Part shown: piece after piece, positions 1,504 to 17,539 of the stretch
Layout: each line of letters starts with the position of its first letter
Position numbering within the stretch: the first letter of the stretch is position 1
Origin: Gemmatimonadota bacterium
Lineage (GTDB): Bacteria; Latescibacterota; UBA2968; GCA-2709665
Assembly: GCA_028874335.1 (NCBI GenBank)
Contig: JAPPJY010000089.1
Location: 1 to 64,000 of the forward strand
Reading direction: 5' to 3'
DNA: 64,000 bases
Notes under the pieces: model-generated
Database searches by the model: none
Seen by the model: the letters and a program-made list of their open reading frames with translations, nothing else
What the model was told of the DNA's origin: nothing
Position numbers and translations under genes: made by a program

Positions 1504-2841
1504 TCAACTCCACGGGAACGGACTGTTGGACACCGGATGGAGCCTTCCCTCGGCATAACGGGAAAAGCGAAACGGCGCCAGCAGACGCGAGGACCCGCCC
1601 AGGAGTTCCCCCGCCACCAGCCTGCCCACGCCGATCATCTTGTACCCGTGATTCGAGTCCGCAATGAAGTAGCAGTTCTGGTGAAACCGGTCGAACACCG
1701 GAAAACTGTCGGGTGTAAACGCGCCGATGCCGCCGGACGGCTCTTTATTGAAGAGCGATGACTTTCCTTCAAACCGCTTGTGACAGAATGCCAGCGCGGA
1801 ACACCACTGATGGGCGAACTGCTCGCCCACGATGAAATCGGGGGATTCCGGTCCATAGGGGTCCACGGCCACGTCGTCCGGCGGTCTTTCCACCCGGTAG
1901 GGCATCGCCCCCCCTTGTACACCCCCGAAGTGGAAATCGGGCTTGTAATAAATGCCCCACAAACGATCGGTAATCAGCGAACCGTCGACGTCCGAATACA
2001 GCGGCGCATCGGTGTCGAGGTGAATAACAGGGGGCATGCTGCCGTCGTTGGTCTTGAGGTAGTTGGGGTCGACGCCCAGCGTACCTTCCTGCAAACACCA
2101 GTAACTCCACATCGGGAGATCGTGGTGCATCGCCCCGTCCGGACCCTTGATGCTCACCGACGCGGGCAGATCCAGCATATCCCAGAGCAGCTTCGCCCAC
2201 GGCCCCGCGGCGATAACGACCTCGTCTGTCCGGATCACGCCGCGATCCGTTTCCACCGCCGAGACAGCTCCTCCGTCGAACCGGAATCCGGTGACCGCGA
2301 CGCCTTCCAGAATCCTGACGCCCTCGCTCCTGGCCTTGTCTGCCAGGCCCACCATCGACGCGCGGTTGTTGGCGTACCCCCCTCTTTTTTCGTGAAGAAC
2401 GGATGTGATTCCCTTCGCCTGCCAGTCGTGAAACAAACGCCGCATATATTTCGTGCAGTCTGCATCGCCTTCTATAAACTCCGATTCGTAACCGATCTCG
2501 CGCTGCTGTTGTGCGATGCTGGCGACGTCCTCATGCATGGACTCGGGGCTGATCTGCATGTAACCGACGGGATGGTAGCTGAACGTCTCCGGATCGGTCT
2601 CCCACAAATCGACGCTGTGCGCCATCAATTCGCGCATGGCCGGCTGGAAGTAGTTATTGCGGATGACGCCGCAGGCGATGCCGGAAGCGCCCGCAGCCAC
2701 GCCCTTCTTGTCCACGATCAGCACCTCGGATCCGGAAACGCCTTGGCGTCTCTTCAGCTCCCTCGCCAGGTGATAGCCGGTACTCAGACCGTGAACGCCG
2801 GCGCCGATAATCAGATATGGCGTATGTTCGGGTATGCGCAT
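1504..2841 (-). CDS. DAO-family FAD-dependent amine oxidoreductase
   Basis: A 445-residue flavoprotein of the D-amino-acid oxidase/sarcosine oxidase beta family. The N-terminus has the dinucleotide fold YLIIGAGVHGLSTGYHLA (about residues 9-26). It is followed by an acidic strand end (VLIVDKKGVAAGASG) and, later, the family segment VVIAAGPWA. Relatives oxidise sarcosine, dimethylglycine or other secondary and tertiary amines. They release an imine or formaldehyde and pass electrons to oxygen or an electron-transfer chain. The substrate cannot be read from the sequence. The neighbours are a ThDP enzyme 36 bases upstream and a RidA protein downstream. This fits an amine-catabolic unit in which RidA clears the imine (inference). 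Confidence 0.8.
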   Translation of the reverse strand: MRIPEHTPYLIIGAGVHGLSTGYHLARELKRRQGVSGSEVLIVDKKGVAAGASGIACGVIRNNYFQPAMRELMAHSVDLWETDPETFSYHPVGYMQISPESMHEDVASIAQQQREIGYESEFIEGDADCTKYMRRLFHDWQAKGITSVLHEKRGGYANNRASMVGLADKARSEGVRILEGVAVTGFRFDGGAVSAVETDRGVIRTDEVVIAAGPWAKLLWDMLDLPASVSIKGPDGAMHHDLPMWSYWCLQEGTLGVDPNYLKTNDGSMPPVIHLDTDAPLYSDVDGSLITDRLWGIYYKPDFHFGGVQGGAMPYRVERPPDDVAVDPYGPESPDFIVGEQFAHQWCSALAFCHKRFEGKSSLFNKEPSGGIGAFTPDSFPVFDRFHQNCYFIADSNHGYKMIGVGRLVAGELLGGSSRLLAPFRFSRYAEGRLHPVSNSPFPWS

Positions 2842-2877
2842 GGTTGCCTCATATCTATAACTCCGGCGTCGAAAACG

Positions 2878-4599
2878 CTAGTATTCCATCCCCGTGTATA
2901 AATTCTCCTCCACCCGGGCAGCCACGACCGTCAATTCCGGTTTGGCCAGCCACGCCTCGCCGGCCCGCCGCATTTCCTCCAGGGTGGTCACCGGCACGCC
3001 CGTTGCGCCGAAGCCGCCCGCGACCCGCGCCCAATCCACCGGCTTGAAATCAACGCCCCGGTAAGGCAGGTTGCGCATGGCCTGAGCGACCTTGACAATG
3101 GCCAGGGACCGGTCGCACATCACCACGAGCAACGGCCGCAGCCCCAGCCTGCGTGCGGTTTCCAATTCCTGGACCATCATCGCGAAACCGGCGTCGCCGA
3201 ACACGCCCGCCACCGGATGACCTGGCCGCAGGAGCGACGCCGCCAGCGCCGACGGCAGACCGTAACCCATCGCGGAAAGGCCGTTTGACGTCAGAAACGT
3301 CCCCGGCGAACGCGGCCGCCAGACCTGCGAAACCAGCATCTTGTGCGCGCCGACGTCGACAGAAAGAATGGCTTCCGCGGGCAGTGTTTCGCGTATTTCA
3401 CGTATCAGATGAAACGGCGAGAGTCCATTTTCACCGGCTTCCTCATCGGGACAGATCGAATCCGCGACGCCGGCTATTGCGCAGCGGATTTCAGCGGCCG
3501 TCCACAGCGGGCGGGCCTTGTATCGGGTCAGCAAGCGATCCAGCAGGATTGTAACGTCGCCCACGCACTCGTAAGCCGGCCTGAAGCCGCCAAAGGCAAT
3601 CGGGTAATTGGCCAGGGAGTAAACCGCCTGGCGAAGATGCCAGTCCTGCGCCGATTCCACCGGATCGAAGCCCACGCCCAGGATACAATCGCTCCGACTG
3701 ATAAGGTCCACGAGAACGGCGTCTCCCGCGGCCGATGCGACCGTGCCCAGATAGCCCGGTCCGAACTCATCGGGAATTCCCTTTGCTTGCGGAAGCACGA
3801 CATAGGGAATCTGAGACTCGGAAAAGAACCGGCGCACCGCGGCCGAATCCCGATGGGCGTCCAGTGCGATGCCCACCACGCCGACCGGACGTTCAGCCCT
3901 GTTCAGCGCCGCCGCTATCCCGTCGAGACTGCCGCTGCACGCGCGAGTCGGGTCCGGCGTCGACGCGCCCTCGCCGGGCGCCGCGTCGGCCACGGCGACG
4001 TCATTCGGTATCGAGAGGTATACCGGACCGGCGGGAGCCGCGGTCGAAACCTTCAAGGCGGACCGCACAGTCGCCTGTATACCTCTCCTCTCAAGGGGGA
4101 CCGACCATTTGCAGACGGGATCGAACAATTCATTGAGAGGCAGATTCTGCTTCTGGCTCACCCGTGACCGGGATACCGGGCTGACCGCGGACAGGGCCAC
4201 GATCGGGTCCCGGTCGAGGTATGCGGCGCCGACGCCCAGCACCAGATTGCAAGCGCCCGGGCCAAGCGTCGCCAGGCAGACCCCCGGCGTGCCCGAAAGG
4301 CGCCCCACCGCGCTGGCCATAAAGGCGGCGGCGGCCTCGTGACCGGTCAGTATAAACCGGATTCCGGTCGTCTCCAGCGCGTCGATCAGATCCACAACCT
4401 CGCCGCCTGGGTGGCCGAATACGAACCTTACACCGCCTTCGTGCAGGGTTTCCGCGATGGCTGTCGCGCAGGATGGCACGGACTCGACGGCTTCCAGGTC
4501 GGCTTTCAAATCAGGCAGGTTCGTGCCCCTTCCGGTAAACCCTTTGGAAGCGCCGGTCCATTCACTGACGTCCTGCCGGGTACGAGGCGGCGCCCGCAA
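2878..4599 (-). CDS. Thiamine-diphosphate-dependent enzyme, acetolactate synthase-like
   Basis: A large-subunit-type ThDP enzyme of up to 573 residues. The pyrimidine-binding domain has the catalytic glutamate in LTGHEAAAAFMASA and the turn TLGPGACNL. A central FAD/DHAP-type domain follows. The C-terminal domain has GDAGFAMMVQELETARR in place of the usual GDG...NN metal motif. Relatives include acetolactate synthase, sulfopyruvate decarboxylase and benzoylformate decarboxylase, and I cannot choose between them. The start is uncertain. The frame opens at a TTG (4599), and a second TTG at the DLKADLEAV segment, with AAGGGG upstream, would give a more usual N-terminus. It lies between a homocysteine methyltransferase and an amine oxidase in the same leftward run. 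Confidence 0.8.
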   Translation of the reverse strand: MRAPPRTRQDVSEWTGASKGFTGRGTNLPDLKADLEAVESVPSCATAIAETLHEGGVRFVFGHPGGEVVDLIDALETTGIRFILTGHEAAAAFMASAVGRLSGTPGVCLATLGPGACNLVLGVGAAYLDRDPIVALSAVSPVSRSRVSQKQNLPLNELFDPVCKWSVPLERRGIQATVRSALKVSTAAPAGPVYLSIPNDVAVADAAPGEGASTPDPTRACSGSLDGIAAALNRAERPVGVVGIALDAHRDSAAVRRFFSESQIPYVVLPQAKGIPDEFGPGYLGTVASAAGDAVLVDLISRSDCILGVGFDPVESAQDWHLRQAVYSLANYPIAFGGFRPAYECVGDVTILLDRLLTRYKARPLWTAAEIRCAIAGVADSICPDEEAGENGLSPFHLIREIRETLPAEAILSVDVGAHKMLVSQVWRPRSPGTFLTSNGLSAMGYGLPSALAASLLRPGHPVAGVFGDAGFAMMVQELETARRLGLRPLLVVMCDRSLAIVKVAQAMRNLPYRGVDFKPVDWARVAGGFGATGVPVTTLEEMRRAGEAWLAKPELTVVAARVEENLYTGMEY

Positions 4600-4638
4600 T
4601 TGCTCAACATTCCGGGCGGGATCAGGCCGCCTGACTCC

Positions 4639-5706
4639 TCACAGCTTATCGACGAACTCCTGATTGTGACGCCTGAGCGTGGCATCGCTGCCCAGCGCAT
4701 AGTGCCTGGACATATCCGGAGAGTACCGGCTGGCAGGCGGGCGTCGACCCAACGCTTCCGCGATCGACCTGACGTGATGCGGCCCGGCTCCGCAGCAGGC
4801 GCCCAGGTACCGGACTCCCATTTCGAACGCTGTACGCGCGAACGCAGCCATTTCGTACCTGTGACATGCAAACGGATCCAGCGCCGTGGGAAAGGAACGT
4901 CCTCCGGGCGGGGCGGGGGCGCCCGTTTCCCCCAGCGACTGAAACGTCGGTTGATCGTCCGTCGTGCGGTAAGGCACCGGCAGTGCCGCCACGTGGCAGG
5001 ACACCGAACGCCGTATTCGTTCAACATCGGGCAGCATCGTCTGCGGACCCCTAGTGCAATTCACCCCCACGACGTCGACGCCTGCCTGTTCAAGGCGTCT
5101 TGCGGCCTCGTCCAGCATGACGCCATCCCTTAGCCCCTCCTCGCGATGGTGGGCAAAGGTGACGACAGCCGGCAAGCCGGCGCGTCTGATGGACGCCAGC
5201 GCCAGCGCGGCCTCGCCGAAGAAGGAAAATGTCTCCGCGATCATGAAATCGACGTTCGCCTCAGCCGCCCAGGCCACCTGCTCGTCGAACATCGCCGCAA
5301 TCTGCGTATCCGTTGCGCCATCGGCCGGGTCCCATATGTTGGTATTGCAAATGTTGCCGGCAACGAGCGGGCGTTCTCCGTCCACGGATCCGGCAACCGA
5401 TTGCGCGATGGACAATGCGCTTTTCTGCAGGGGTTCCAGAAGGTGTTCACTTCCAATGAGACGCATCTTTTCACGGTGCCCGTAATAGGTAAACGCTTCG
5501 ATCACGTCGGTGCCCGCGCGCCAGAATTCGAGATGCAGACCGGCCACGACCTCGGGATGCTCGAGCACGACCTCCGGCACGTATGGGCCCGCCTGCAGAT
5601 ACCCCCGGCGCTCGAGTTCGAACAGGTAGCCCTCTGCGCATATCACCGCGTCTTCGTCAAGGCGCTGCAACAGGCCCCGGGGGGTTGCCGACGCATCTGC
5701 TTTCAT
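4639..5706 (-). CDS. Homocysteine S-methyltransferase family protein (BMT)
   Basis: A 355-residue TIM-barrel methyltransferase of the betaine-homocysteine/S-methylmethionine methyltransferase family (Pfam S-methyl_trans). The zinc-binding cysteines are visible: one in VVGVNCTRGP and the adjacent pair in LGACCGAGPHH near the C-terminus. Family members move a methyl group from betaine, S-methylmethionine, DMSP or a similar donor to homocysteine or another thiol. The ATG at 5706 follows AAGGA at a good distance. A second family member, fused to a SAM-type methyltransferase domain, lies at 9766-11514 in the same block, so two different donors or acceptors are likely (inference). Confidence 0.85.
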   Translation of the reverse strand: MKADASATPRGLLQRLDEDAVICAEGYLFELERRGYLQAGPYVPEVVLEHPEVVAGLHLEFWRAGTDVIEAFTYYGHREKMRLIGSEHLLEPLQKSALSIAQSVAGSVDGERPLVAGNICNTNIWDPADGATDTQIAAMFDEQVAWAAEANVDFMIAETFSFFGEAALALASIRRAGLPAVVTFAHHREEGLRDGVMLDEAARRLEQAGVDVVGVNCTRGPQTMLPDVERIRRSVSCHVAALPVPYRTTDDQPTFQSLGETGAPAPPGGRSFPTALDPFACHRYEMAAFARTAFEMGVRYLGACCGAGPHHVRSIAEALGRRPPASRYSPDMSRHYALGSDATLRRHNQEFVDKL

Positions 5707-5736
5707 CAGAATCGTTCCTTCGGTTTTCCCGACTGA

Positions 5737-8022
5737 TTATCGGGACGACACATTCGCCGGCGGCGTCGGGTTGGCGTCTCCCAGCACCGTGCGTCCGGCG
5801 GGGGTGTCCAGAAACCGGCGAATCACGTTGCGTGTGATCATCGAGACGTTGTTTGAATACCCGTTGTGAGAGAGGCTGCCCGTCCACGTTACGGAGCCCG
5901 CGGAAAAGACCGCGCCTCCCCCGGCATAGTCCATAATCGCCACGTCGGCCGCGGGCGTGACGTGTGTGCGCCTGGCGGGGATGAAATCGGGATGCGCCGC
6001 CCGGGCGAGTACGACCGGCTCCGGCGTGAACCGGTCCCACGCCCAGGCCTGAACGGCATCCATTTCAAATCCGGCCGCGCTGCCCAGGTTCAGACCGAAG
6101 TCGCCGATAATCTCGTCCTGCCCGACGCCGTGGAATACCCATGCATATCTGGCGTCCATGCTTGACGGAAGCCGCCGGAATCCCCGTTTATCGTCGGCTT
6201 CGATCCAGGCGTTGGACGCATGTTCCACGCCGACCGTCCGCCGTGGTGGACGTCCGCGCCTGGCCCACAGACCTCCGAGTTCCAGTGTCGTACTGTGTTG
6301 GGATTCCCCGGGCGCAGGATCGTACGTCGGTCCGTAGTCGCCCTCTCCTCCCCTGCGAAGTTCGAGCAGGTGCGTCCGCCGGGTGTCGATGGACGTCACC
6401 CAGTACAGACCGTTGCCGCTCAAATAGACGAGGCGGCCCCCGTTCCGCACGTACGCCGCCAGGCTGTCGACCATGTTTTCGGTGTGGTATTCCGGATGGC
6501 TTCCCATAACCACACATCGATAGCCGGAGAGCAGATCGGCGCCCCCGCGATGAAGGTCTTCGTCCGCAAATGCCTCGTATTCGAACCCCAGCGCCTCCAG
6601 CCAGTCGATCAGGTAGAGGTTCGCCGTTATGTTGTGCGCCCCCCAGTTCTGGAATCCCGCGCCGGGATTCCATCCCCGTGTGGGCTGAAGGCGCGAGTAA
6701 TAGTGAACCATCGAACCGTCGCTGTGAACGTCGTAAGTACACAGCGTTCGGTCCAGGACACCGTCTTCCGTATAGCTGTACGCGGCACGGTTGCTTCCGT
6801 ATGCCTGCCACGTCAGCGTGGGAATCAGACATCCCAATTCGGAACGCGGCGTTTTCGATGTAACGATAAACGGTACGAAGAGCGCGTCCGAAGCGGACCG
6901 TGCCCGCAGTGTGTATATGCCGGATCTCGCGTCGGAAGGCACCGCAACCGTAATCGCCGTCGGCCACCCTGCATCTTCGAGGTCGTCTTCATGCAGGTAG
7001 ATCGCGTTGTAATCATCGGGCCGATCCGTATAAAGCCTGGACGGCATTCCCCCCCAGTACGGCCCCGTCACGGCGCGCCCCGGCGCATTGACGGCAAGCC
7101 CGTGGTTTCTGTTGTCAGAAAGATCGACGACCCGGGGGCCGGTCACGTCCAGGCCAAGATGCCAGTTTCCAATGACGGGGCCGAGGGTTGACGGGTCCTG
7201 TCCGCCAGCAAGCGCCAGGACCGCTTCGCGGTCTAGCGCGGCTCCGAGAATCACGGGGTGCGCGATCTTGCCCGTAAAGTGAGCCCAGTGGCAAGCGCTG
7301 CGATCGGCGTCCTGACACGCGCCGAACAGCAATGGCGCGTTACTTGCGAACACGCAACCCTTCCTGATTTCTTTCGAGGAAAGACTCAACGTATCGCGGG
7401 AAGACCGGGTTTCGACCACGCCGGCCGTATCGCCAATCTGCTGGTAGAGACGGATTTCGCCGGAGTCAGGACGGTGCGAGAACGCCACGAACTGCCAGTT
7501 GCCCACGTGGATGTTCTCTCTGGCCGTCGCCCAGTGCGCCGTCCTTCCGTCGTGAGAAACCGCAGCCGTCAGAAAGCGCTCGCCCGCGAAGAAAATACCG
7601 TAGCCCAGGTTTTCGCTTGTCCACTTCACGGCAAGGGCGCGCCAGCCGCCACCGCCCAGCGTTGGCTGGAACCAGAGGGCGACGGTAAACGGACCTTTCG
7701 GATTCAGGGTATCGGAGTGGGGAATCTCTATGTACGAACCATAATCCGTAGGTTGTTCGAAAACCTCGATGCGGTCCGGCTGCCCCCATGAGACACGTTC
7801 TTCCCGGTAGCCCGGACCGGCGGGATTGGGATCGCCATGAATCAATCGCGACAGGTTCACGTCCACCGTACCTGGAGGGCCGCCCAGTTTGAATGCGATC
7901 TCCGCTCCGGCCGGCACGGTCATTTCATCCGCGTAGCCCTCCAGCCCGAGTCCCGGGACGGGCGACGATTTCTCGAATCGGGGATTGGACAATATTCGTG
8001 CCTTCGCTTTGGACATCTCCAT
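5737..8022 (-). CDS. N,N-dimethylformamidase large-subunit-like protein with LamG domain
   Basis: A 761-residue protein. Residues around 90-220 look like a LamG/concanavalin-type fold (GPFTVALWFQPTLGGGGW, VAFSHRPDSGEIRLYQQ). From about residue 400 the sequence matches the catalytic region of the N,N-dimethylformamidase beta subunit family, with LIPTLTWQAYGSNRAAYSY, a glutamine-amidotransferase-like core and GGRLVYLSGNGLYWVTSI. The characterised enzyme uses mononuclear iron to hydrolyse dimethylformamide to dimethylamine and formate. No small alpha subunit is seen here. Most relatives have unknown substrates, probably N-substituted amides. Formate dehydrogenase genes a few kilobases upstream in the same orientation would suit a formate-releasing reaction (inference). 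The start could be the first ATG (8022) or the one two codons later. Confidence 0.75.
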   Translation of the reverse strand: MEMSKAKARILSNPRFEKSSPVPGLGLEGYADEMTVPAGAEIAFKLGGPPGTVDVNLSRLIHGDPNPAGPGYREERVSWGQPDRIEVFEQPTDYGSYIEIPHSDTLNPKGPFTVALWFQPTLGGGGWRALAVKWTSENLGYGIFFAGERFLTAAVSHDGRTAHWATARENIHVGNWQFVAFSHRPDSGEIRLYQQIGDTAGVVETRSSRDTLSLSSKEIRKGCVFASNAPLLFGACQDADRSACHWAHFTGKIAHPVILGAALDREAVLALAGGQDPSTLGPVIGNWHLGLDVTGPRVVDLSDNRNHGLAVNAPGRAVTGPYWGGMPSRLYTDRPDDYNAIYLHEDDLEDAGWPTAITVAVPSDARSGIYTLRARSASDALFVPFIVTSKTPRSELGCLIPTLTWQAYGSNRAAYSYTEDGVLDRTLCTYDVHSDGSMVHYYSRLQPTRGWNPGAGFQNWGAHNITANLYLIDWLEALGFEYEAFADEDLHRGGADLLSGYRCVVMGSHPEYHTENMVDSLAAYVRNGGRLVYLSGNGLYWVTSIDTRRTHLLELRRGGEGDYGPTYDPAPGESQHSTTLELGGLWARRGRPPRRTVGVEHASNAWIEADDKRGFRRLPSSMDARYAWVFHGVGQDEIIGDFGLNLGSAAGFEMDAVQAWAWDRFTPEPVVLARAAHPDFIPARRTHVTPAADVAIMDYAGGGAVFSAGSVTWTGSLSHNGYSNNVSMITRNVIRRFLDTPAGRTVLGDANPTPPANVSSR

Positions 8023-8029
8023 GAACGGC

Positions 8030-8812
8030 TCAAATGTACCTCACCAGCCCGCCGTCCACGTCTATAGATGCGCCGGTAACGTAGCTTGCCCGTTTGCTGG
8101 CCAGGAAAGTCACGACCGCCGCGATCTCTTCCGCTTCCCCCACCCTGCCCAGCGGTGTCTCCCGGCCTGCCTGTGCGTAATACGCCTCCAGTTCCGCGTC
8201 CGGCGCGAAATAGTCCAGCGTACTGCCCCAGGCCTGGCTCTTCACGTTGCCGGGATTGACACTGTTTACAAGAATACCGTATTGTGCAAGATTGTCCGCG
8301 AGACCCTTGCTGAATGCCAGACACGCGGCTCTGTCCGTGCTGTTGGCGATGTATTCCGGCGCAATCTGGCGCCCGACGATTGAGTTGATGTTGACAATCC
8401 TGGCCTGCGTGCTTTGTTTCAGATAGGGCAGTGCGGCCCGCACACAGCGCATCGCCGCAAACAGCTTCACGTCGAGGTCCGCGCGCCAGCGGACCTCCTC
8501 CACCTCTTCGAACGTACCGGGAAGCGCACTGCCGGCATTGTTCACCAGAATATCCAGGCCGCCCAGCGCGGTGGCTGCCGCTACCACGAACGCCAGGATC
8601 CGGTCGTTGTCCGTTACATCGGCAGTGTCGGCGAATACGTCGGCACCGGTTTCCTTCCGGAGCGCCGCCGCCGTATCGTCAAGATCACGGGACCCTCGGG
8701 CGCAGATCGCAAGGTCGGCGCCTTCCCGTGCGAGTTCAAATGCAATTGCACGGCCGATACCCTTGCTGCCGCCCGTAACCAGCGCACGGCGGCCTTTCAG
8801 CCCAAGGTCCAT
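8030..8812 (-). CDS. SDR-family oxidoreductase with altered catalytic residues
   Basis: A 260-residue short-chain dehydrogenase/reductase. The cofactor motif TGGSKGIG is near residue 14, and LVNNAG near residue 90 is intact. The active-site region reads SIVGRQIAPEYIANSTDRAACLAF. Aligned with the usual S...YxxxK pattern, this puts Asn at the catalytic Tyr position and Arg at the Lys position. I checked this against the bases at 8320-8400. A known subset of SDRs annotated as ketoacyl reductases shows similar losses. The ATG at 8812 is chosen because AGGAGG lies five bases before it. The dimethylformamidase-like gene follows after seven bases, so the two are probably co-transcribed. Confidence 0.82.
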   Translation of the reverse strand: MDLGLKGRRALVTGGSKGIGRAIAFELAREGADLAICARGSRDLDDTAAALRKETGADVFADTADVTDNDRILAFVVAAATALGGLDILVNNAGSALPGTFEEVEEVRWRADLDVKLFAAMRCVRAALPYLKQSTQARIVNINSIVGRQIAPEYIANSTDRAACLAFSKGLADNLAQYGILVNSVNPGNVKSQAWGSTLDYFAPDAELEAYYAQAGRETPLGRVGEAEEIAAVVTFLASKRASYVTGASIDVDGGLVRYI

Positions 8813-8881
8813 CAAACCCTCCTGCGTGCCGGACGACGTGTCATAACCATGCCCGGAACGTGTTCCGAAACCCTTATGTTC

Positions 8882-9712
8882 TCAGTACATCGCACCCGTT
8901 GTCACGCGAATGTCCTCCCCGTTGATGCCCCGCGCTTCGTCCCGGCACAAAAAAACCACGAGATCGGCGATTTCCTCCGGTCGGAGGAACCTGCCCTGCG
9001 GATAGGTTTTCATGACCTCCTCGCGCATGGCTTCACGGGAGAGTCCCTGGTCTTCCGCCCACCGCCGCAGATGCATTTCCCCCGATGGCGTCTCGATCGT
9101 AGCCGGGCTGACGGTATTGGCCGTTATGCCATGGGGAGCCGCTTCCAGCGCAAGAGACCTGCTGAACCCCAACAACCCGTGCTTGGATGCCGCATAGGCG
9201 CTGTAATTCGACGTGCCGATATGGGAATTGGTGGAGCCGATGGATACGATACGCCCCCAACCGTTTTCAATCATATGGGGAAGTGCATATCTGGCGCAGA
9301 GGTAGGGTCCGAACAGATTCACGTCAACCACGCGCCTCCACGCCCGGTCGTCGTGGTTCAGAATCGGATGTATTACATTCGTTGCAGCATTATTCACCAG
9401 AACGTCCAACCTGCCGAAGGTCCTGATGGTCCGGCCGATCATGTCCTCAACGTCCGTCGTGGAACTCACGTCTCCGTCCAGACCGATGCACCGTACGCCC
9501 GTTTCCCGGATTTCCCCCCGGGTTGCTTCGATCTCGTCGGCGCCCGCGAAATATTTCACCTCGCCTTCCACCCGCTTCACGCGCACGCTGCTCAAGGACA
9601 TGATGCAGACGTCCGCGCCCCGACCCGCCAGACGCAGCGCGATAGCCCTGCCCAGCCCGCTCGCGCCACCCGTGACAATTGCGGCGCGTCCTTTCAGGAA
9701 TCGATCTTCCAT
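8882..9712 (-). CDS. SDR-family oxidoreductase
   Basis: A 276-residue classical SDR. It has TGGASGLG near residue 15, LVNNAATN in the middle, serine in IVSIGSTNSH and the full YAASK catalytic motif (NYSAYAASKHGLLGFSRSLA). It is expected to be an NAD(P)-dependent alcohol/ketone oxidoreductase, substrate unknown. The ATG at 9712 has GGAAG seven bases upstream and is preferred over an in-frame codon at 9763. The gene lies between the fused methyltransferase and the second SDR. The two SDRs may act in sequence, or one may be non-catalytic. Confidence 0.85.
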   Translation of the reverse strand: MEDRFLKGRAAIVTGGASGLGRAIALRLAGRGADVCIMSLSSVRVKRVEGEVKYFAGADEIEATRGEIRETGVRCIGLDGDVSSTTDVEDMIGRTIRTFGRLDVLVNNAATNVIHPILNHDDRAWRRVVDVNLFGPYLCARYALPHMIENGWGRIVSIGSTNSHIGTSNYSAYAASKHGLLGFSRSLALEAAPHGITANTVSPATIETPSGEMHLRRWAEDQGLSREAMREEVMKTYPQGRFLRPEEIADLVVFLCRDEARGINGEDIRVTTGAMY

Positions 9713-9765
9713 ATTGCAACTTCCGCTGGCGTATGGGAGCGCACCACGTTCCAGAACCGGCACGG

Positions 9766-11514
9766 CTATGGATTCCGTCCGGCAGCCCTTATTTCCAGCA
9801 GGTACATCACCATCACGTTTTCCTGACCAAAACTCAGGTGGAAGGCGTCCGACAATTCGGCGACCCGCCGGATCTGGTCCGAGTTTTCATCGAATAACGG
9901 TCCAAAATGAAAAAAGCTGAAGTCGATGACCTTCGCTTCCAACCCGGCGGCCGAAACCAGCTCCGACGTCCGAATCTGGCTCAACGCCGAAATCTGCATC
10001 AGGTAGGCGATGCCCTCGTCGGCCAGCATCTCCGGCAGCAGGGCGACCAGGTGATCGAGTAGATTCCTGCCCCAAAAATCCGCGGGCCGGTGTCCGGTTG
10101 CCTGGCGGACCGGATCCACCGGCATCTGATAGAGGCTGCCGATCACCAGGTCATGGCGCTCTTCCGGAATATAAGTGTAGAGGTCCACAACCCGTCCGGA
10201 AATACGGTCGGCCACGCCGTTGCGAAACGCGTTCGTCATTGTATTGCCGATGGCTTCTTTCTGAATATCGATTGCAAGGACCTGCTCCGCTCCGTTCAAT
10301 GCGAGCTGTACCGAGAGGATTCCGGTACCGCACCCCACGTCCAGACAGCGTTTGCCCCGACCGGCGCCCGTTCGAAAGAGGTGCTTCCAGATCAGAAAGC
10401 TCCCCTGCGTGGGAGCGAATACGCCAGGATCGCAAGCAATTTCAGGAAATGGCAGCGGAAAGAGCGACCTCCCGGCCTCGTCCGCCCATGGACCCTGGAC
10501 GACCGCTGCATCCTTCCGGCTTCCGCGCAGCGGTGACGCCTGCTCACGCACGCGCTTTCGGCCGGGCCGGGTGCAGGCGAGCGTTTTTCCGGCTTTGGCA
10601 ATGTGATCCGGCGTGACGCCACAGCACCCGCCAATGATCTGCGCGCCCTCGTCCCGCCAGCCCCTGGCCAGCGCGGCAAAGCGCCGGGGGCCCACGGACT
10701 CGTCAAATTTCCAACCCGGATCCAGGTAGCGTCCCAGGTTCGGGTAAACGCCCAACGGCAGATCCGTAAAATCCCGCAGCCACGAGATCATCCCCGGAAC
10801 GTGATCCACCGGCAGACAATTGATCAGCAGGGCGCCAATCCCCAACCGTTGAAACCGGTGGGCCAGCCTGCCGAAATAATCGCCCTCAGGCCCACCCCAG
10901 TGCTGTCCGTGTACGCCACACAGACCCTCTCTGCAACGCCGAAAGCTCAGCCACACCGGAAGGCCGGTCTGGATCATCATTTCGATTGCGGGAAGCGTAA
11001 GGTCGTCCCGGACGATTGACATCGTCTCCATCAAGACAAGGTCGGGCGGTTCGTCCGCAAATACCCTTGCCAGCAGTTGCAAGCGCTCCAGCCGCTGAGG
11101 CGTATCGATGTCTCCGTTCATGCTGAACGCGACGGCGCATTCGTCGTCCCTGCCCAGCTCCTGATTCGCCTGGCGCGCCAGTCCGACGCCGCGTCGCGCC
11201 ACATCCATCCAATGCGATATACCCACGTCCGGCGTCGGTCCTCCCCCGCCAATCTCCGATCCCTCGAGGATTCCCCAGGTATTGGTTGAAATGACGTCAC
11301 ACCCGACTTCTGCAAAGCGCCGGTGCATATCGAGAACGGTATAGGGTTCATGGTACAACGCCCAGGTGCCCCAAAGGCTGTGATCGCTTATGGCGTGATC
11401 CTGAAGGCCCATGCGATCCAGTTCGGTTGCAACACCGCCATCCAGAATGACACAACGGTCCTCGACGATAGATCGCTGGATGCGGCGGTAGGCTTTCGAG
11501 AAGATGCGGCCCAT
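9766..11514 (-). CDS. Fused homocysteine S-methyltransferase / class I SAM-methyltransferase
   Basis: A 582-residue fusion in a single open frame. Residues 1 to about 310 form an S-methyl_trans TIM barrel (CVILDGGVATELDRMG; zinc cysteines in LLINCLPVDHV and IIGGCCGVTPDH, about residue 295). After a basic linker, residues 350-582 form a Rossmann methyltransferase with CLDVGCGTGILSVQLALNGA (about residue 390) and an acidic strand end AIDIQ. The fold resembles PrmA/HemK-type enzymes. One half would methylate a thiol and the other would use SAM. Whether a methyl group is relayed between them is speculation. The ATG at 11514 has GGAG ten bases upstream, but an ATG at 11607 is also possible. It is first in the catabolic run. 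Confidence 0.75.
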   Translation of the reverse strand: MGRIFSKAYRRIQRSIVEDRCVILDGGVATELDRMGLQDHAISDHSLWGTWALYHEPYTVLDMHRRFAEVGCDVISTNTWGILEGSEIGGGGPTPDVGISHWMDVARRGVGLARQANQELGRDDECAVAFSMNGDIDTPQRLERLQLLARVFADEPPDLVLMETMSIVRDDLTLPAIEMMIQTGLPVWLSFRRCREGLCGVHGQHWGGPEGDYFGRLAHRFQRLGIGALLINCLPVDHVPGMISWLRDFTDLPLGVYPNLGRYLDPGWKFDESVGPRRFAALARGWRDEGAQIIGGCCGVTPDHIAKAGKTLACTRPGRKRVREQASPLRGSRKDAAVVQGPWADEAGRSLFPLPFPEIACDPGVFAPTQGSFLIWKHLFRTGAGRGKRCLDVGCGTGILSVQLALNGAEQVLAIDIQKEAIGNTMTNAFRNGVADRISGRVVDLYTYIPEERHDLVIGSLYQMPVDPVRQATGHRPADFWGRNLLDHLVALLPEMLADEGIAYLMQISALSQIRTSELVSAAGLEAKVIDFSFFHFGPLFDENSDQIRRVAELSDAFHLSFGQENVMVMYLLEIRAAGRNP

Positions 11515-11635
11515 GCAGAATACGCTCCGGTGCGCCGGCGGCACGGCCGGCCGTCGACCGTTCCTGTTTGTCCGAAACGACAGAAAAGCGTCGCGATGAG
11601 GATCCATATGACCCGGTAATGAACCAACTCCGCCA

Positions 11636-11664
11636 AAGATAGCCCGGAATGGCGGGATGCACAA
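11636..11664 (-). promoter_or_regulatory. Possible promoter of the fused methyltransferase run
   Basis: On the leftward strand TTGTGC and TATCTT are separated by 17 bases. The -10 box matches consensus at 4 of 6 positions and the -35 is weaker. Transcription would start near 11,629. That would put either candidate ATG of the fused methyltransferase gene (11607 or 11514) within the first 120 bases. Confidence 0.3.
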
Positions 11665-11753
11665 ATGCAATTCTCACAACCTTCACGTCCCGGACCACCC
11701 GCAGGAACATCGGCCACGTTCGAATATCACGTTGATCTCGCGTGTGTATGTAC

Positions 11754-12178: not shown

Positions 12179-13009
12179 TTATTGCGCGACACGTTCGGGG
12201 TGCGCATACAGGTTGAAACCCTTCCGTCGAACGAATCCCGCAAGGGTAATACCCACATCGGATGCAAGATCCACCGCAAGCGAACTGGCCGCGGAAACGC
12301 TTGCAACAACGGGTATTCGCGCGACCGCTGCTTTCTGTACGATTTCAAAACTCGCTCTGCCGCTTACGGCCAGTAAGACGGCACCCGAAGACGCGCCCAC
12401 CAGACGGTCGAAAAGCAGGGCGCCCACGGTCTTGTCCACGGCATTGTGGCGGCCGACGTCTTCGGAGCACACAAGCGCACGGCCATCCCGGTCGAACGCG
12501 GCGGCGGCGTGTACGCCGCCGGTATGTGCGAATGTGGGTTGAATCCGCCTCATACCGTCTATCGATTCAATGAGCAATGTTGCGGGAATCTTCGGCCCGG
12601 GCGGCAACACGGAACAGCGCGCCACCAGGTCCGCAACGTCCTGCCGACCGCAGACACCGCACGCCGACGTCGTGAGTGTGCCGCGCCGGCTGGCGCTCAC
12701 CCGTTCAATATCCAGGCTGTGCCCGGGCGCGGGGAGCACGTCGATGGCGTTGCCGTATCCTTCGGTCCCCGGTCTTCCGCAGTGAAAGACTCTCCCCACG
12801 TCCTCGATTGACCCGATTATCCCTTCCGAGAACAGAAAACCCGCCGCCAGCCGCGCATCTTCTCCCGGCGAACGCATGGTAACGGCAACGGGGTCCCCCG
12901 CAACGCGGATTTCCAGGGGTTCTTCAATTGCGAGTTCGTCGCGGACAGAACGCGGCGGACAGCCGTCATCCATCCTCGAAACGACGCGCTGTGTAATCCC
13001 CGGGTTCAA
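12179..13009 (-). CDS. fdhD: Formate dehydrogenase accessory sulfurtransferase FdhD
   Basis: A 276-residue FdhD. The protein transfers sulfur from IscS to the molybdenum cofactor of formate dehydrogenase and is required for its activity. The conserved cysteine loop is present (TTSACGVCGRQ, about residue 110). So are the family segments RMIQPTFAHTGGVHAA-like and EDVGRHNAVDKTVGALL. The frame opens with TTG at 13009, preceded by GAGG at six bases. An ATG at 12973 is the alternative. It starts nine bases after the stop of fdhA and leads into fmdB, forming one leftward operon. Confidence 0.92.
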   Translation of the reverse strand: MNPGITQRVVSRMDDGCPPRSVRDELAIEEPLEIRVAGDPVAVTMRSPGEDARLAAGFLFSEGIIGSIEDVGRVFHCGRPGTEGYGNAIDVLPAPGHSLDIERVSASRRGTLTTSACGVCGRQDVADLVARCSVLPPGPKIPATLLIESIDGMRRIQPTFAHTGGVHAAAAFDRDGRALVCSEDVGRHNAVDKTVGALLFDRLVGASSGAVLLAVSGRASFEIVQKAAVARIPVVASVSAASSLAVDLASDVGITLAGFVRRKGFNLYAHPERVAQ

Positions 13010-13017
13010 CGTTAACC

Positions 13018-15756
13018 TCAGGGTGTATGTGGTTCCGGCACAATCGCTTCAATACGAACCGGACATACCTTTAGTTCGGCTGTTTCCGTCACCGGATCGT
13101 AGCCGGATCCTGTAAGTACATTTACCGGAACGTCATTGAAACCAAAACTCGCGAACACGGTGCCTCGGGGTGACTGCCGGGTCGCCTTCACCTTGATCCT
13201 GATGGACCCCCGCGCGCTTGACATCTGACACCAGCCGCCGTCGGTAAGACCCCATGCCGACACGTCCGTTGGATTCACCTCCAGCGTCTCTTCGGAAAGA
13301 AAATAGTCGATCCCCGCCGCCCTGCCGGTCTGGGTCCGCGTATGGTAGGCATGCAGCCTGCGACCGGTCGTCAGCCATACCGGAAAGTCGTCGCTGACTG
13401 TCTCCGCCGGATTGCGGTAGCGATGCTTCGTGAAAATACCCCGGCCGTTTGCAAATTCGCCTTCGTGCAACATCGGTGTGCCTGGATGTTCAAAGTCAGG
13501 GACCGGCCAGTGGTACTCGCCGTGCTCTATCCGATCCCAATCCAGCCCGGCGTATATTGGAGACAAGCTGCACAGCTCGTTGAATACATCTTCGGCGGAA
13601 GCGTACTCGAATCCGGGCGTTCCCATCCGTTTGGCAATCTCACTGATGATCCACCAGTCAGGACGGGCTTCGCCGGGGGGCGGGACCGCGGCACGCAGCC
13701 GCTGGACGCGCCGCTCGGTATTGGTACACGTCCCGTCCGTTTCGCCCCAGGCCGTTGCCGGCAGCACCACGTCGGCGAGTTCTGCGGTTTCGGTCAGGAA
13801 AATGTCGATAACCACCAGATGGTCGAGGCTCTGCAATGCGTGCGTGCAATGCGCCCTGTCCGGATCGGACACGACCGTGTTCTCCCCGTCGATCAGCATG
13901 GCGTGGATCCGGTCTCCGCACAGGTTCAACGCCGCCACCTTCGTAATGCCCGTTTCCGCTTCCAGACGCTTGCCGTAGAGCCGTGAGAATCTCGCCGCAT
14001 TCTCCGGGTCGTCACAGGGCTGGAAGCCGGGGAATTTATCCGGAATGGCTCCTGAATCGCCGGCGCCCTGGATATTGTTCTGGCCGCGCATTGGATTGAT
14101 GCCCGTGCCCTCCCGCCCCACGTTTCCCGTCATCAGCGCGAGATTGCACAGGCTCTGGACATTGTCGACGCCGCAGATATGCTCGGTTATTCCCAGCGTA
14201 TAGTAGATCGCGCCCCGGTCCGCCATACCGTACCAGATCGCGGCGAGTTCGATATCCTTCGCAGGCACCCCCGTAATCCGCTCGGCCCACTCCGGGGGAT
14301 ATTCCTTGACATGCTCGAGCAAGTCTTCAGACTTCACGGTCCGGCTATTGACAAAGTCCCTGTCAACGAGTCCTTCCCGCGCAATGACGTGGGCCATTGC
14401 CAGCAGTAGAGCGACATCCGACCCGACCCGCAACGGAAGATAGAGATCCGCCATCTCCGCCAGCGGAATGCGCCGCGGGTCCGCGACGATCAGCTTTGCG
14501 CCGCCCCGTATTGCTTTCTTCAGTCGCGTCGCCGCCACCGGATGACACTCGGTCATGTTCGTCCCGATGCAGAAGAACACATCGGGCTTGTCCATATCGA
14601 CCAGCGGATTCGACATCGCGCCCCTTCCGACCGTGGCTGCCAGACCGGCAACCGTTGGGGCGTGTCAGGCACGGCTGCAGTTGTCTATGTAATTGGTACC
14701 GAATCCGGCGCGGATAAATTTCCCCATCACGTACGCGGCCTCGGTAGGCGCGCGACCCGACGCCACTCCGTACGCGCTGAATTTCCCGTGCTTCGCTCGA
14801 GCATCGCTGAAACCCCCAGCAGCGCGATCCAGTGCCTCCTCCCAGCCGGCTTCGTGCAGCTTACCGTCTCCACGGCGCACGAGCGGCGCCTTCAGGCGAT
14901 CGCGGTGATGCACGAAGTCGAACGCGAATTGCCCCTTTACACAAAGCGCGCCCTCGTTCGCCGGGCCGTCCATCGCGGGCTGGATGCCCACGATCCGCTC
15001 CCCTTTGGTCATCAGGTCCACGGAACACCCCACCCCACAATACGGGCAGGTCGTTCGGGTCTTTTCAATCTTCCCCGGTTCGCCGGAGGCCCTCAATGCC
15101 TTCCTGTCAGCAAGCGCGCCCGTGGGGCAGGTCTGAATACACTGCCCGCAGAACGTACAGGACGACTCCTTCAGCAGGCCGTCGAACTCGGTTACGATCT
15201 GCGTCTCGAACCCACGGCCCATCACGCTGATCGCGTCGTCTCCCTCCTGTTCGGCACACACGCGGACGCAACGGTAGCAGGAGATACATCTGTCGTAGTC
15301 CCGCAACAGAAACGGATTGTCGTCCTCCATCTTGCTGCGTCCGGAAAGAGCGCCACTGAACCTGCCGGTGCGCGCGCCGTATCGATCCGCAAGCGTGGAC
15401 AGTTCCTGCGAGGCATATCCGCAGAGGGGATCCACATCGATCTCGGGGTTTTCGGACGCCACCATCTCCAGCAACACCTTTCGATACTTCCGTATCTCAT
15501 CCGTTTCCGAACGAACGACCATACCGGGCGTCACGGGTGTGGTGCAGGAAGCCACGGGAGTTTGTGCCCCTTCCACGTCGACCACGCAGAGGCGGCAACC
15601 TCCGAAGGGCTTCAGCCGCGCGTCGTAACACAGGGTCGGCACGGATATCGAGTGCCTTTGCGCAACGTCGAAAATGGTTTCTCCGTGGGAGAACCGGACC
15701 GTCTCGCCGTCAAGGGTCATTGTGGCTGTCTTGCCGCTATCCATGTCTTCGACCAT
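13018..15756 (-). CDS. fdhA: Formate dehydrogenase alpha subunit, selenocysteine-containing (TGA read-through)
   Basis: A 912-residue molybdopterin oxidoreductase whose frame is interrupted only by a TGA at 14665-14667, codon 364. The surrounding peptide DNCSRA-(TGA)-HAPTVAGL aligns exactly with the formate dehydrogenase active site, where the residue is Sec or Cys. The N-terminus is NuoG-like: a plant-type 2Fe-2S domain (CYDARLKPFGGCRLC), 4Fe-4S sites (CISCYRCVRVC, CTFCGQCIQTCP), then the Mo-domain cluster TTCPYCGVGC. The C-terminus is a molydop-binding domain. It oxidises formate to CO2 and passes electrons to the NAD-reducing beta subunit. The ATG at 15756 has AAGGGGAG upstream. A normal stop would truncate the protein just before the catalytic residue, leaving two meaningless halves. 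Confidence 0.93.
14635..14664 (-). promoter_or_regulatory. Bacterial SECIS element in fdhA
   Basis: Starting 11 bases after the TGA, the mRNA can form a seven-pair hairpin (GGTTGCC / GGCAGCC, one U-G pair) closed by the loop GGTCT at 14635-14653. Spacing, stem and loop agree with the Escherichia coli fdhF SECIS, whose apical loop also contains GGUCU 11 bases from its UGA. This is the SelB-binding signal that recodes UGA as selenocysteine. Confidence 0.88.
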
Positions 15757-15803: not shown

Positions 15804-17468
15804 CTACTGCCGCAACACGTGCCGTTCGACCTGATCCGGAAAATACTTCATCAGGCTCTCCGTCACCAGAGGAGCCGCCGTGCCCAGACCGCACGCGCTG
15901 GTGGCCATCATGGCCAGGCCGATATCATGTACCTCCGCCCGCCATTGCCCCACCTGCCCCGGCCCGTTAACGCCGTTCAGCCGCTCCACCAGCCGGCGCG
16001 TGCCGATGCGGCACGGAAAACACTTGCCGCAGGACTCGTCGGCAAAAAAGGCCATCGCGCCGTGGGCAACTTCGACCATGTCCCTGCTGTCGTCGAAGAC
16101 GATGATGCCCCCGGCGCCGAGAAAGGACCCGTAACCTCGGAGGCTGGGTTCATCGAGCGTCGCTTCCAGCGCGTCACCCGCTACAAAGCCACCCGACAAT
16201 CCCGCCATGGTGACCGCCTGGATGTCCCGGCCGCCGGGGGCGCCGCCGCCCCAATCGTAAAGCAGTGTTCTCAGTGGCAGGCCGAAGGGGACTTCGTAGT
16301 TGCCCGGACTCTCGATATCGCCCGACAGACTGATGACTTTCGTGCCTGGCTGGCCGTTCAATCCAAGACTCCGGTACCAATCCGCGCCTTTTCGGATGAT
16401 CTGAGGTACGGCAACCAGGGTTTCAACGTTGTTCACCGCAGTCGGCAGGTCCTCAAACCCATGGGTAACCGGATAAGGCGGCCGGTTTCTTGGGAACGGA
16501 TGCCTGCCTTCCAGGCTGTTCAGTAACGATCCCTCTTCGCCGCACACATACGCCCCTCCGCCGCGCCGGATGTGTATCCGGAAATCGAAATCCGTCCCCA
16601 GAATGCCATCGCCAACCAAACCGGCGGCCTCCGCTTCTTCGATGGCGCTTTCCAGAATGCTCAGTGTTTGCGGATATTCGTACCTCAGGTAGATGAACCC
16701 CCGCGTGGCGCCGGTTGCGTACGCGGCGATGACCATGCCCTCCAGTACCGCATGCGGATCATAGTCCAGCAGGGCCCGATCCTTGAAGCAGCCGGGTTCT
16801 CCCTCGTCTGCGTTGCAGACAACCGTTTTCGGACCGCCCGCGGCTTCAGATACCGCCTCCCACTTCGCGCCTGTGGGAAAGCCCGCGCCTCCGCGGCCGG
16901 CCAGCCCGCTTTCCGTGACCCGCTCCACGACCTCTGCCGGCTCCATCCCGGATATCGCTCTCTTCAGTCCGCAGTACCCCTTTGAGGCGCGATACCCTTC
17001 GAGGTTCGAGCGGTTCGGCGCGCGAATATGTCGAAAGACGCACTCCTCCAGCCGGCCGGGGTTTTCCGCCGGCAGCGGCGTCGGGTCCTCCCTCATGCGC
17101 CGTGCATCCGTCCCCACGAGAACCCTGTGGTTCTGTATTACCGGGACCGGTTCATCGCACCTGCCCGCACACGCCATCGGGGCGCCATTCAGGGTATCGC
17201 ACATCTCCTGCGCGCCGCGAAGCGCGCATATCGGCCCGGTGCAAACGCGGAATCCATCAAGTCCGCCGGGCTTGCGGGAAATGTGATGATAGAACGTTAC
17301 GGTACCGAACAAGTCTGCCAGCGGCGTTTTCAACCCGGCGGAAATGGCCCCGATGGCCTCATCGGAGACATACCCGTCCCGATCGTGGAACGCGTGCAAC
17401 AGCGGCAACAGCGGCGCAGGTTCGTCTTTCCAGCGTCGAACCAGTTCGGCGTCCGAAGGGTCCGCCAT
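15804..17468 (-). CDS. NAD-dependent formate dehydrogenase beta subunit (NuoE-NuoF fusion)
   Basis: A 554-residue fusion. Residues 1 to about 150 are a thioredoxin-like 2Fe-2S domain of NuoE type, with the four cysteines in CTGPIC and CAGRC. The rest is NuoF-like: the FMN/NADH site GRGGAGFPTGAKW, a SLBB segment and the C-terminal 4Fe-4S ligands ESCGKCFPC plus a distal Cys in TSACGLG. It takes electrons from the alpha subunit and reduces NAD+. The ATG at 17468 has GGGAG at six bases, and an upstream in-frame codon at 17513 lacks this. It is the first gene of the formate dehydrogenase operon, 47 bases ahead of fdhA. It could be misnamed complex I NuoF, but no other complex I genes are nearby. 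Confidence 0.88.
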   Translation of the reverse strand: MADPSDAELVRRWKDEPAPLLPLLHAFHDRDGYVSDEAIGAISAGLKTPLADLFGTVTFYHHISRKPGGLDGFRVCTGPICALRGAQEMCDTLNGAPMACAGRCDEPVPVIQNHRVLVGTDARRMREDPTPLPAENPGRLEECVFRHIRAPNRSNLEGYRASKGYCGLKRAISGMEPAEVVERVTESGLAGRGGAGFPTGAKWEAVSEAAGGPKTVVCNADEGEPGCFKDRALLDYDPHAVLEGMVIAAYATGATRGFIYLRYEYPQTLSILESAIEEAEAAGLVGDGILGTDFDFRIHIRRGGGAYVCGEEGSLLNSLEGRHPFPRNRPPYPVTHGFEDLPTAVNNVETLVAVPQIIRKGADWYRSLGLNGQPGTKVISLSGDIESPGNYEVPFGLPLRTLLYDWGGGAPGGRDIQAVTMAGLSGGFVAGDALEATLDEPSLRGYGSFLGAGGIIVFDDSRDMVEVAHGAMAFFADESCGKCFPCRIGTRRLVERLNGVNGPGQVGQWRAEVHDIGLAMMATSACGLGTAAPLVTESLMKYFPDQVERHVLRQ

Positions 17469-17539
17469 TCCACACTCCCTATCGATGCCAGATTGGCAGA
17501 AAATAACGCCCACCGGCTTCCTGCCGGCGGGAGACGATC

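Follow-up and report, generated by a model that had tools for sequence, protein, structure and literature searches.

The formate dehydrogenase alpha gene (fdhA) in the window, the 64,000-nucleotide stretch of DNA analysed here, raises the question of how a UGA codon in the middle of an active site is read. Read through this UGA, the gene (13018–15756, minus strand) runs for 912 codons from the ATG at 15756 to the TGA at 13018, and TGA at codon 364 (14665–14667, minus strand) is the only internal stop in its frame. The initial annotation took this codon for selenocysteine (Sec), placing it in a formate dehydrogenase active-site context within an otherwise open frame, and both the coordinates and the translation agree with that description: read from 14667 to 14665, the codon lies in TNYIDNCSRA-TGA-HAPTVAGLAATVGRGAMSN (context DNCSRA-U-HAPTVAGL). 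As had also been anticipated, a default gene caller would give two ORFs, 15894–14665 and 14616–13018, which break at the active-site residue so that the active site is lost.

We compared this position with the same gene in other genomes. Orthologues found by searching 60 related genomes were 72–94% identical and had an identical TGA, and a search of GTDB contigs recovered the same gene with TGA in metagenome-assembled genomes (MAGs) of Latescibacterota, Gemmatimonadota, Poribacteria, Verrucomicrobiota and Caldilineaceae (Chloroflexota); close relatives among these contig matches include the Latescibacterota isolate 277c_44 and two bins named RHO. When FdhA homologues were aligned, a check that had been proposed beforehand, all close orthologues had the Sec codon: TGA stands at site 364 in 50 of 50 sequences of the non-duplicate codon alignment (66–94% identical), and Cys was found in no orthologue of 66% identity or above. 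Relatives at ~43% identity or less have Cys (TGC/TGT) or Sec at the site, often Cys, in keeping with the earlier statement that the catalytic residue is one or the other, and the in-frame UGA of fdhA lies at this Sec/Cys redox position. A quick tree requires two changes of the Sec/Cys label, and long branches leave its deeper order unsure. An apparent insertion beside Sec in one genome (G015), where the match came in three pieces, was discarded, as at least next to Sec it is a run of N in the assembly. A second, distinct Sec-FdhA (~41% identical, HQCAATUHAPTVAGL) replaces this FdhA in a related genus of the same order (L049, L050 and L051).

Directly 3' of the UGA, at 14635–14653 on the minus strand, we found the hairpin that had been described as seven pairs with a GGTCT loop, 11 bases past the TGA. 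This upper hairpin of a putative bacterial SECIS, GGUUGCC-GGUCU-GGCAGCC, has a stem of 14653–14647 paired with 14641–14635 and a loop at 14646–14642; it covers bases +15 to +33 from the U of the UGA, after a spacer of 11 bases (14664–14654), and its seven pairs include one U-G. The distance from UGA to loop is 18 nt, within the published range of 16–37 nt for bacterial SECIS elements (PMC10778597), and with its conserved GGU loop the hairpin has the position and form expected in a selenoprotein gene. A single-sequence fold of 61 nt around the UGA showed nothing unusual (z -0.59); such a fold is uninformative alone, and comparative tests were used instead. Taken by itself, the 19-nt hairpin (-11.0 kcal/mol) ranks within the three most stable of the gene's 2721 19-mers, and it is the only one of these three with a loop starting GGU. 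Rfam SECIS_3 matched the element over its full length with 47.5 bits (E 4.2e-10; curated gathering score of 63 not reached), and SECIS_2 matched it end to end with 37.7 bits (E 2.5e-6; curated gathering score of 70 not reached). The hairpin would act like SECIS_3 and SECIS_2 elements while falling outside both Rfam families by score. The GGUCU loop is replaced by GGGCU in one of the 50 orthologues, in the Poribacteria MAG KW1-S08_28 (L054:3693–3755), which could be due to an error in sequencing, to decay of the SECIS or to a changed SelB.

The relatives show that the hairpin is under selection as RNA. For the covariation test we used 41 distinct 57-nt stretches, with 500 shuffles as a control. 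The seven pairs stand in 96.5% of pair cells compared to a shuffled mean of 88.3, a level reached by 0 of 500 shuffles; the covariation score is 0.219 vs 0.077 for shuffled sequences, and 22 pair cells are changed on both sides vs a shuffled mean of 6.0. This pairing signal was lost when the partner was slid by 1–3 columns. The strongest pair, 18-30 (UA 28, CG 10, GC 2, AU 1), had zero failures in 41 sequences and connects the wobble positions of a Val and an Ala codon; as changes at both positions are synonymous, its covariation cannot be put down to constraint on the protein. One observation counts against the hairpin: in 10 of the 41 sequences its outermost pair (15-33) does not form. We also measured synonymous variability at 182 conserved fourfold-degenerate sites of fdhA in the 50 non-duplicate sequences. 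The two least variable sites are the third bases of codon +6 (C in 50/50), which sits in the SECIS stem, and codon +7 (U in 49/50), which supplies the U of GGU in the loop. Averages taken over 5 sites point to the same place, the six lowest of them all overlapping the hairpin. This comparative evidence, covariation together with synonymous constraint, excludes chance as the source of the hairpin. The suggested check of the SECIS has thereby been answered at two levels, by matching Rfam models and by RNA-level constraint and covariation among relatives.

Decoding of UGA as Sec requires a dedicated machinery, and the initial annotation had supposed that the organism makes selenoproteins and proposed a genome search for selA, selB, selC and selD. 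The genome of the window is a 5.43 Mb draft in 96 contigs (completeness 97.55%, contamination 6.99), and our genome-wide evidence consists of targeted searches of these contigs. All four genes by which a Sec-decoding bacterium is recognized are present over their curated cut-offs; selB and selC, whose absence had been named as grounds for rejecting Sec, are both among them. On another contig than the window's (C54), selC scored over the cut-off as tRNA-Sec with 73.4 bits and was called by ARAGORN as tRNA-SeC with anticodon TCA; selA (TIGR00474, 550 bits) and selB (TIGR00475, 356.7 bits) lie directly upstream in the order selA-selB-selC, and the best matches of SelB among solved structures are SelB chains (4zu9, 5lzb). 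The selD gene lies on contig C95 (L018:1474–2529; TIGR00476 362.5 bits, protein 368.7 bits) and itself has one in-frame TGA, at codon 19, followed 10–11 nt later by a 7-bp hairpin with a GGUC loop (fold z -2.24; 18-mer -9.9 kcal/mol). An Rfam search of the selD region gave no match to a SECIS family, though folding gives the hairpin. SelD is thus a predicted second, independent selenoprotein of the same organism. A covariance model of the relatives' SECIS, run over the window's genome, returned the fdhA element with 77.4 bits and one weak match (E 3.8), and no further selenoproteins were found with it, 150 of 6114 first-look candidates having been scored. Because bacterial SECIS elements vary between genes and only these candidates were scored, FdhA and SelD need not be the genome's only selenoproteins.

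In a draft with contamination of 6.99, the sel contigs might, in principle, belong to a different organism. However, selC, Sec-type selD and Sec-fdhA also occur in three genomes of the window's genus, which counts against a foreign origin of these contigs. The distribution of tRNA-Sec is in broad agreement, with scores above 65 bits in most of the relatives that encode Sec-FdhA. Three genomes (G031, G033 and G036; L029, L032 and L028) gave no confident tRNA-Sec despite a Sec-type fdhA, probably due to missing contigs, as these are draft assemblies of 73–89% completeness. Another relative (G020) has two tRNA-Sec genes of equal score, on contigs C12 and C31. In one genus (G026, G030, G036 and G039; L148, L127, L126 and L133), selD has no in-frame TGA and fdhA keeps Sec.

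With sel genes in the genome, TGA in 50/50 orthologues and a conserved, covarying SECIS, the sequence evidence supports what had been called very probable, and we find that UGA 364 is almost certainly decoded as selenocysteine. Other readings of the codon have to be weighed against this one. In a metagenome-type draft of 96 contigs, and with Cys (TGC/TGT) here in more distant homologues, the TGA might be a sequencing or assembly error that replaces a Cys codon, or the mark of a pseudogene. But the same TGA stands in all 50 non-duplicate orthologues from many independent assemblies, which excludes the sequencing error that had been raised as a possible objection (TGC or TGT in other reads), and the frame is otherwise open and conserved, with a selected RNA element directly downstream. 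Since the TGA is conserved together with a covarying SECIS, we regard error or gene decay as refuted, the probability left to it being exceedingly small. That a UGA is read through could also reflect an altered genetic code with UGA read as Trp or Gly, the least probable of the readings considered here. UGA is the commonest stop in the window, ending 19 of 28 main genes, fdhA included, tRNA-Sec (anticodon TCA) and SelB are present, and the compared homologues have Sec or Cys at the site, never Trp or Gly. The terminal UGA of fdhA (13018–13020, minus strand) serves as an internal control: it has no hairpin at the SECIS position, where the 19-mer folds with 0 kcal/mol, and the next in-frame stop (TAA) follows one codon on. 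An altered code is ruled out because UGA is a normal stop here and no fold lies past the terminal UGA of fdhA. Lastly, UGA 364 could be a real stop, as the two ORFs of a default gene caller would have it, with the halves functioning as two proteins in their own right or with truncation being regulated. Such a split would, however, take away the cofactor ligand, other stop codons at site 364 occur in no orthologue, and synonymous constraint peaks at the SECIS, as recoding predicts, which leaves a real stop very improbable. Some termination at the UGA is expected under selenium shortage, as for any selenoprotein.

Decoding of UGA 364 as selenocysteine would follow the known bacterial route, with the hairpin downstream of the UGA predicted to be a standard bacterial SECIS. 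SelA would make Sec-tRNA(Sec) with selenophosphate from SelD, and SelB with Sec-tRNA(Sec) would bind the apical GGU loop and deliver Sec as the UGA occupies the A site of the ribosome. By homology, the Sec would be the selenium ligand of Mo or W in the bis-pyranopterin cofactor. FdhA passes the TIGR01591 Fdh-alpha equivalog cut-off (729.7 vs 666.25 bits) and has the Pfam domains Fer2_4, Fer4_Nqo3, Molybdop_Fe4S4, Molybdopterin and Molydop_binding, a layout of a NuoG-like N-terminal part with [2Fe-2S] and [4Fe-4S] clusters followed by a Mo/W-bisPGD catalytic domain. Upstream of fdhA lies a gene for an fdhB/fdsB-like beta subunit, a fused NuoE + NuoF (15804–17513, minus strand; Pfam 2Fe-2S_thioredx, Complex1_51K, SLBB and NADH_4Fe-4S), which has a thioredoxin-like [2Fe-2S] part, an FMN/NAD-binding domain and a [4Fe-4S] part; many relatives, from several phyla, also have the alpha gene close to the beta gene. 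The NuoG-like alpha N-terminus and the adjacent NuoE/NuoF-type subunit are those of the FdhAB/FdsAB type. Downstream of fdhA is fdhD (12179–13009, minus strand; PF02634 215 bits, TIGR00129 above cut-off), for a sulfurtransferase that would mature the FDH cofactor. No other FDH of this family was found in the window's genome, the remaining matches being two pieces of one NuoG-like gene. The enzyme is a cytoplasmic, probably NAD-linked formate dehydrogenase of the FdhAB/FdsA type, for which we infer NAD+ as acceptor, the metal and the reaction direction. Formate electrons would pass from the NuoG-like Fe-S domain of FdhA into the NuoE/NuoF fusion, the subunit that most likely reduces NAD+.

The codon could be Sec and the enzyme nonetheless an electron-bifurcating FDH (NAD + ferredoxin) or mainly a CO2 reductase, and bifurcation has been proposed for related Chloroflexi FdhAB with NuoE/NuoF-like beta subunits (PMC5736913). 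We consider this unlikely. The genes found here make up a two-subunit FdhAB plus FdhD, enzymes that may produce formate are encoded nearby, and the genome contains a haem-copper oxidase subunit I, so that the cell probably can respire oxygen. Plain NAD-linked oxidation of formate is a more parsimonious explanation than bifurcation or CO2 reduction.

Near fdhA, a same-strand run of genes occupies 1504–11670 of the window on the minus strand. It includes an FAD-dependent DAO-type oxidoreductase (1507–2841, minus strand), two homocysteine S-methyltransferases (4642–5706 and 9769–11670, the second of which carries a fused methyltransferase domain) and a dimethylformamidase-beta-like protein (5740–8022, minus strand). 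The enzymes of this run are a possible formate or one-carbon source for the FDH.

Sec-containing FdhAB has already been described in Moorella thermoacetica and deep-sea Chloroflexi (PMC5736913). Compared by description, the NADP-dependent FdhAB of M. thermoacetica (MOTH_2312–2314) is likewise cytoplasmic, with a Sec-containing alpha and a nucleotide-binding beta subunit, but its beta domain set differs from the NuoE+NuoF fusion found here, as does the host phylum (PMC5736913). The NAD-dependent FdhAB of the deep-sea Chloroflexi (SAG An-B22, DscP3), by description, has a beta subunit with thioredoxin-like 2Fe-2S, FMN and NAD(P) binding, SLBB and 4Fe-4S, as here, and An-B22 also has Sec in alpha (PMC5736913). 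However, Sec is reported to set An-B22 apart from DscP3, which is 78% identical (PMC5736913), whereas every orthologue that we found has Sec. The best full-length matches of FdhA among solved structures are FdsA of Rhodobacter capsulatus (6tg9; 627.7 bits) and FDH1 alpha of Methylobacterium/Methylorubrum extorquens (7e5z, 7vw6; 665 bits), which share the NuoG-like and catalytic layout but are Cys enzymes (PMC10779653), the M. extorquens one using W. The catalytic domain also matches E. coli formate dehydrogenase H (fdhF, 1aa6; 485.6 bits), which has the Sec ligand, and in the Rfam alignment the SECIS_2-like element of E. coli fdhF has equal spacing and the GGUCU loop. E. coli FdhF lacks the N-terminal NuoG-like domain and is part of formate hydrogenlyase.

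Sec-FdhA is the commonest bacterial selenoprotein and its mechanism is textbook knowledge, and since one survey (PMC1794560) counted FdhA in 67 of 75 Sec-using bacteria, the principle is not new. The analysis corrects how a gene is annotated which default calling would break in two at its active-site residue, it indicates that these uncultured, little-studied marine bacteria use selenocysteine, and it offers a clean comparative demonstration of a selected RNA element inside a coding sequence. Moreover, the Sec-only orthogroup spans several marine and sponge-associated phyla. Verrucomicrobiota and Caldilineaceae MAGs have the same Sec-FdhA (L061–L076, L077, L078 and L083), and because the Verrucomicrobiota sequences group in the tree among those of the window's class, their placement suggests lateral transfer. 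In the literature on selenocysteine in Latescibacterota or Poribacteria, we found only a remark on SelA/SelB in sponge symbionts. According to that passage, SelA and SelB co-occur in most symbiont bins of various phyla in a sponge metagenome and are absent from most close references, and the passage names no client protein (PMC5649159). The Sec-FdhAB orthogroup is a lead here, as a candidate client for this enrichment. We tentatively hypothesize, while thinking the contrary more probable, that lateral transfer among marine and sponge-associated bacteria spread this Sec-only FdhAB, seen here in MAGs of Latescibacterota, Poribacteria, Verrucomicrobiota and Caldilineaceae, and that it is the chief client for which these bacteria retain the Sec machinery. 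If true, this would explain why, as the passage describes, sponge symbionts are enriched in SelA and SelB (PMC5649159).
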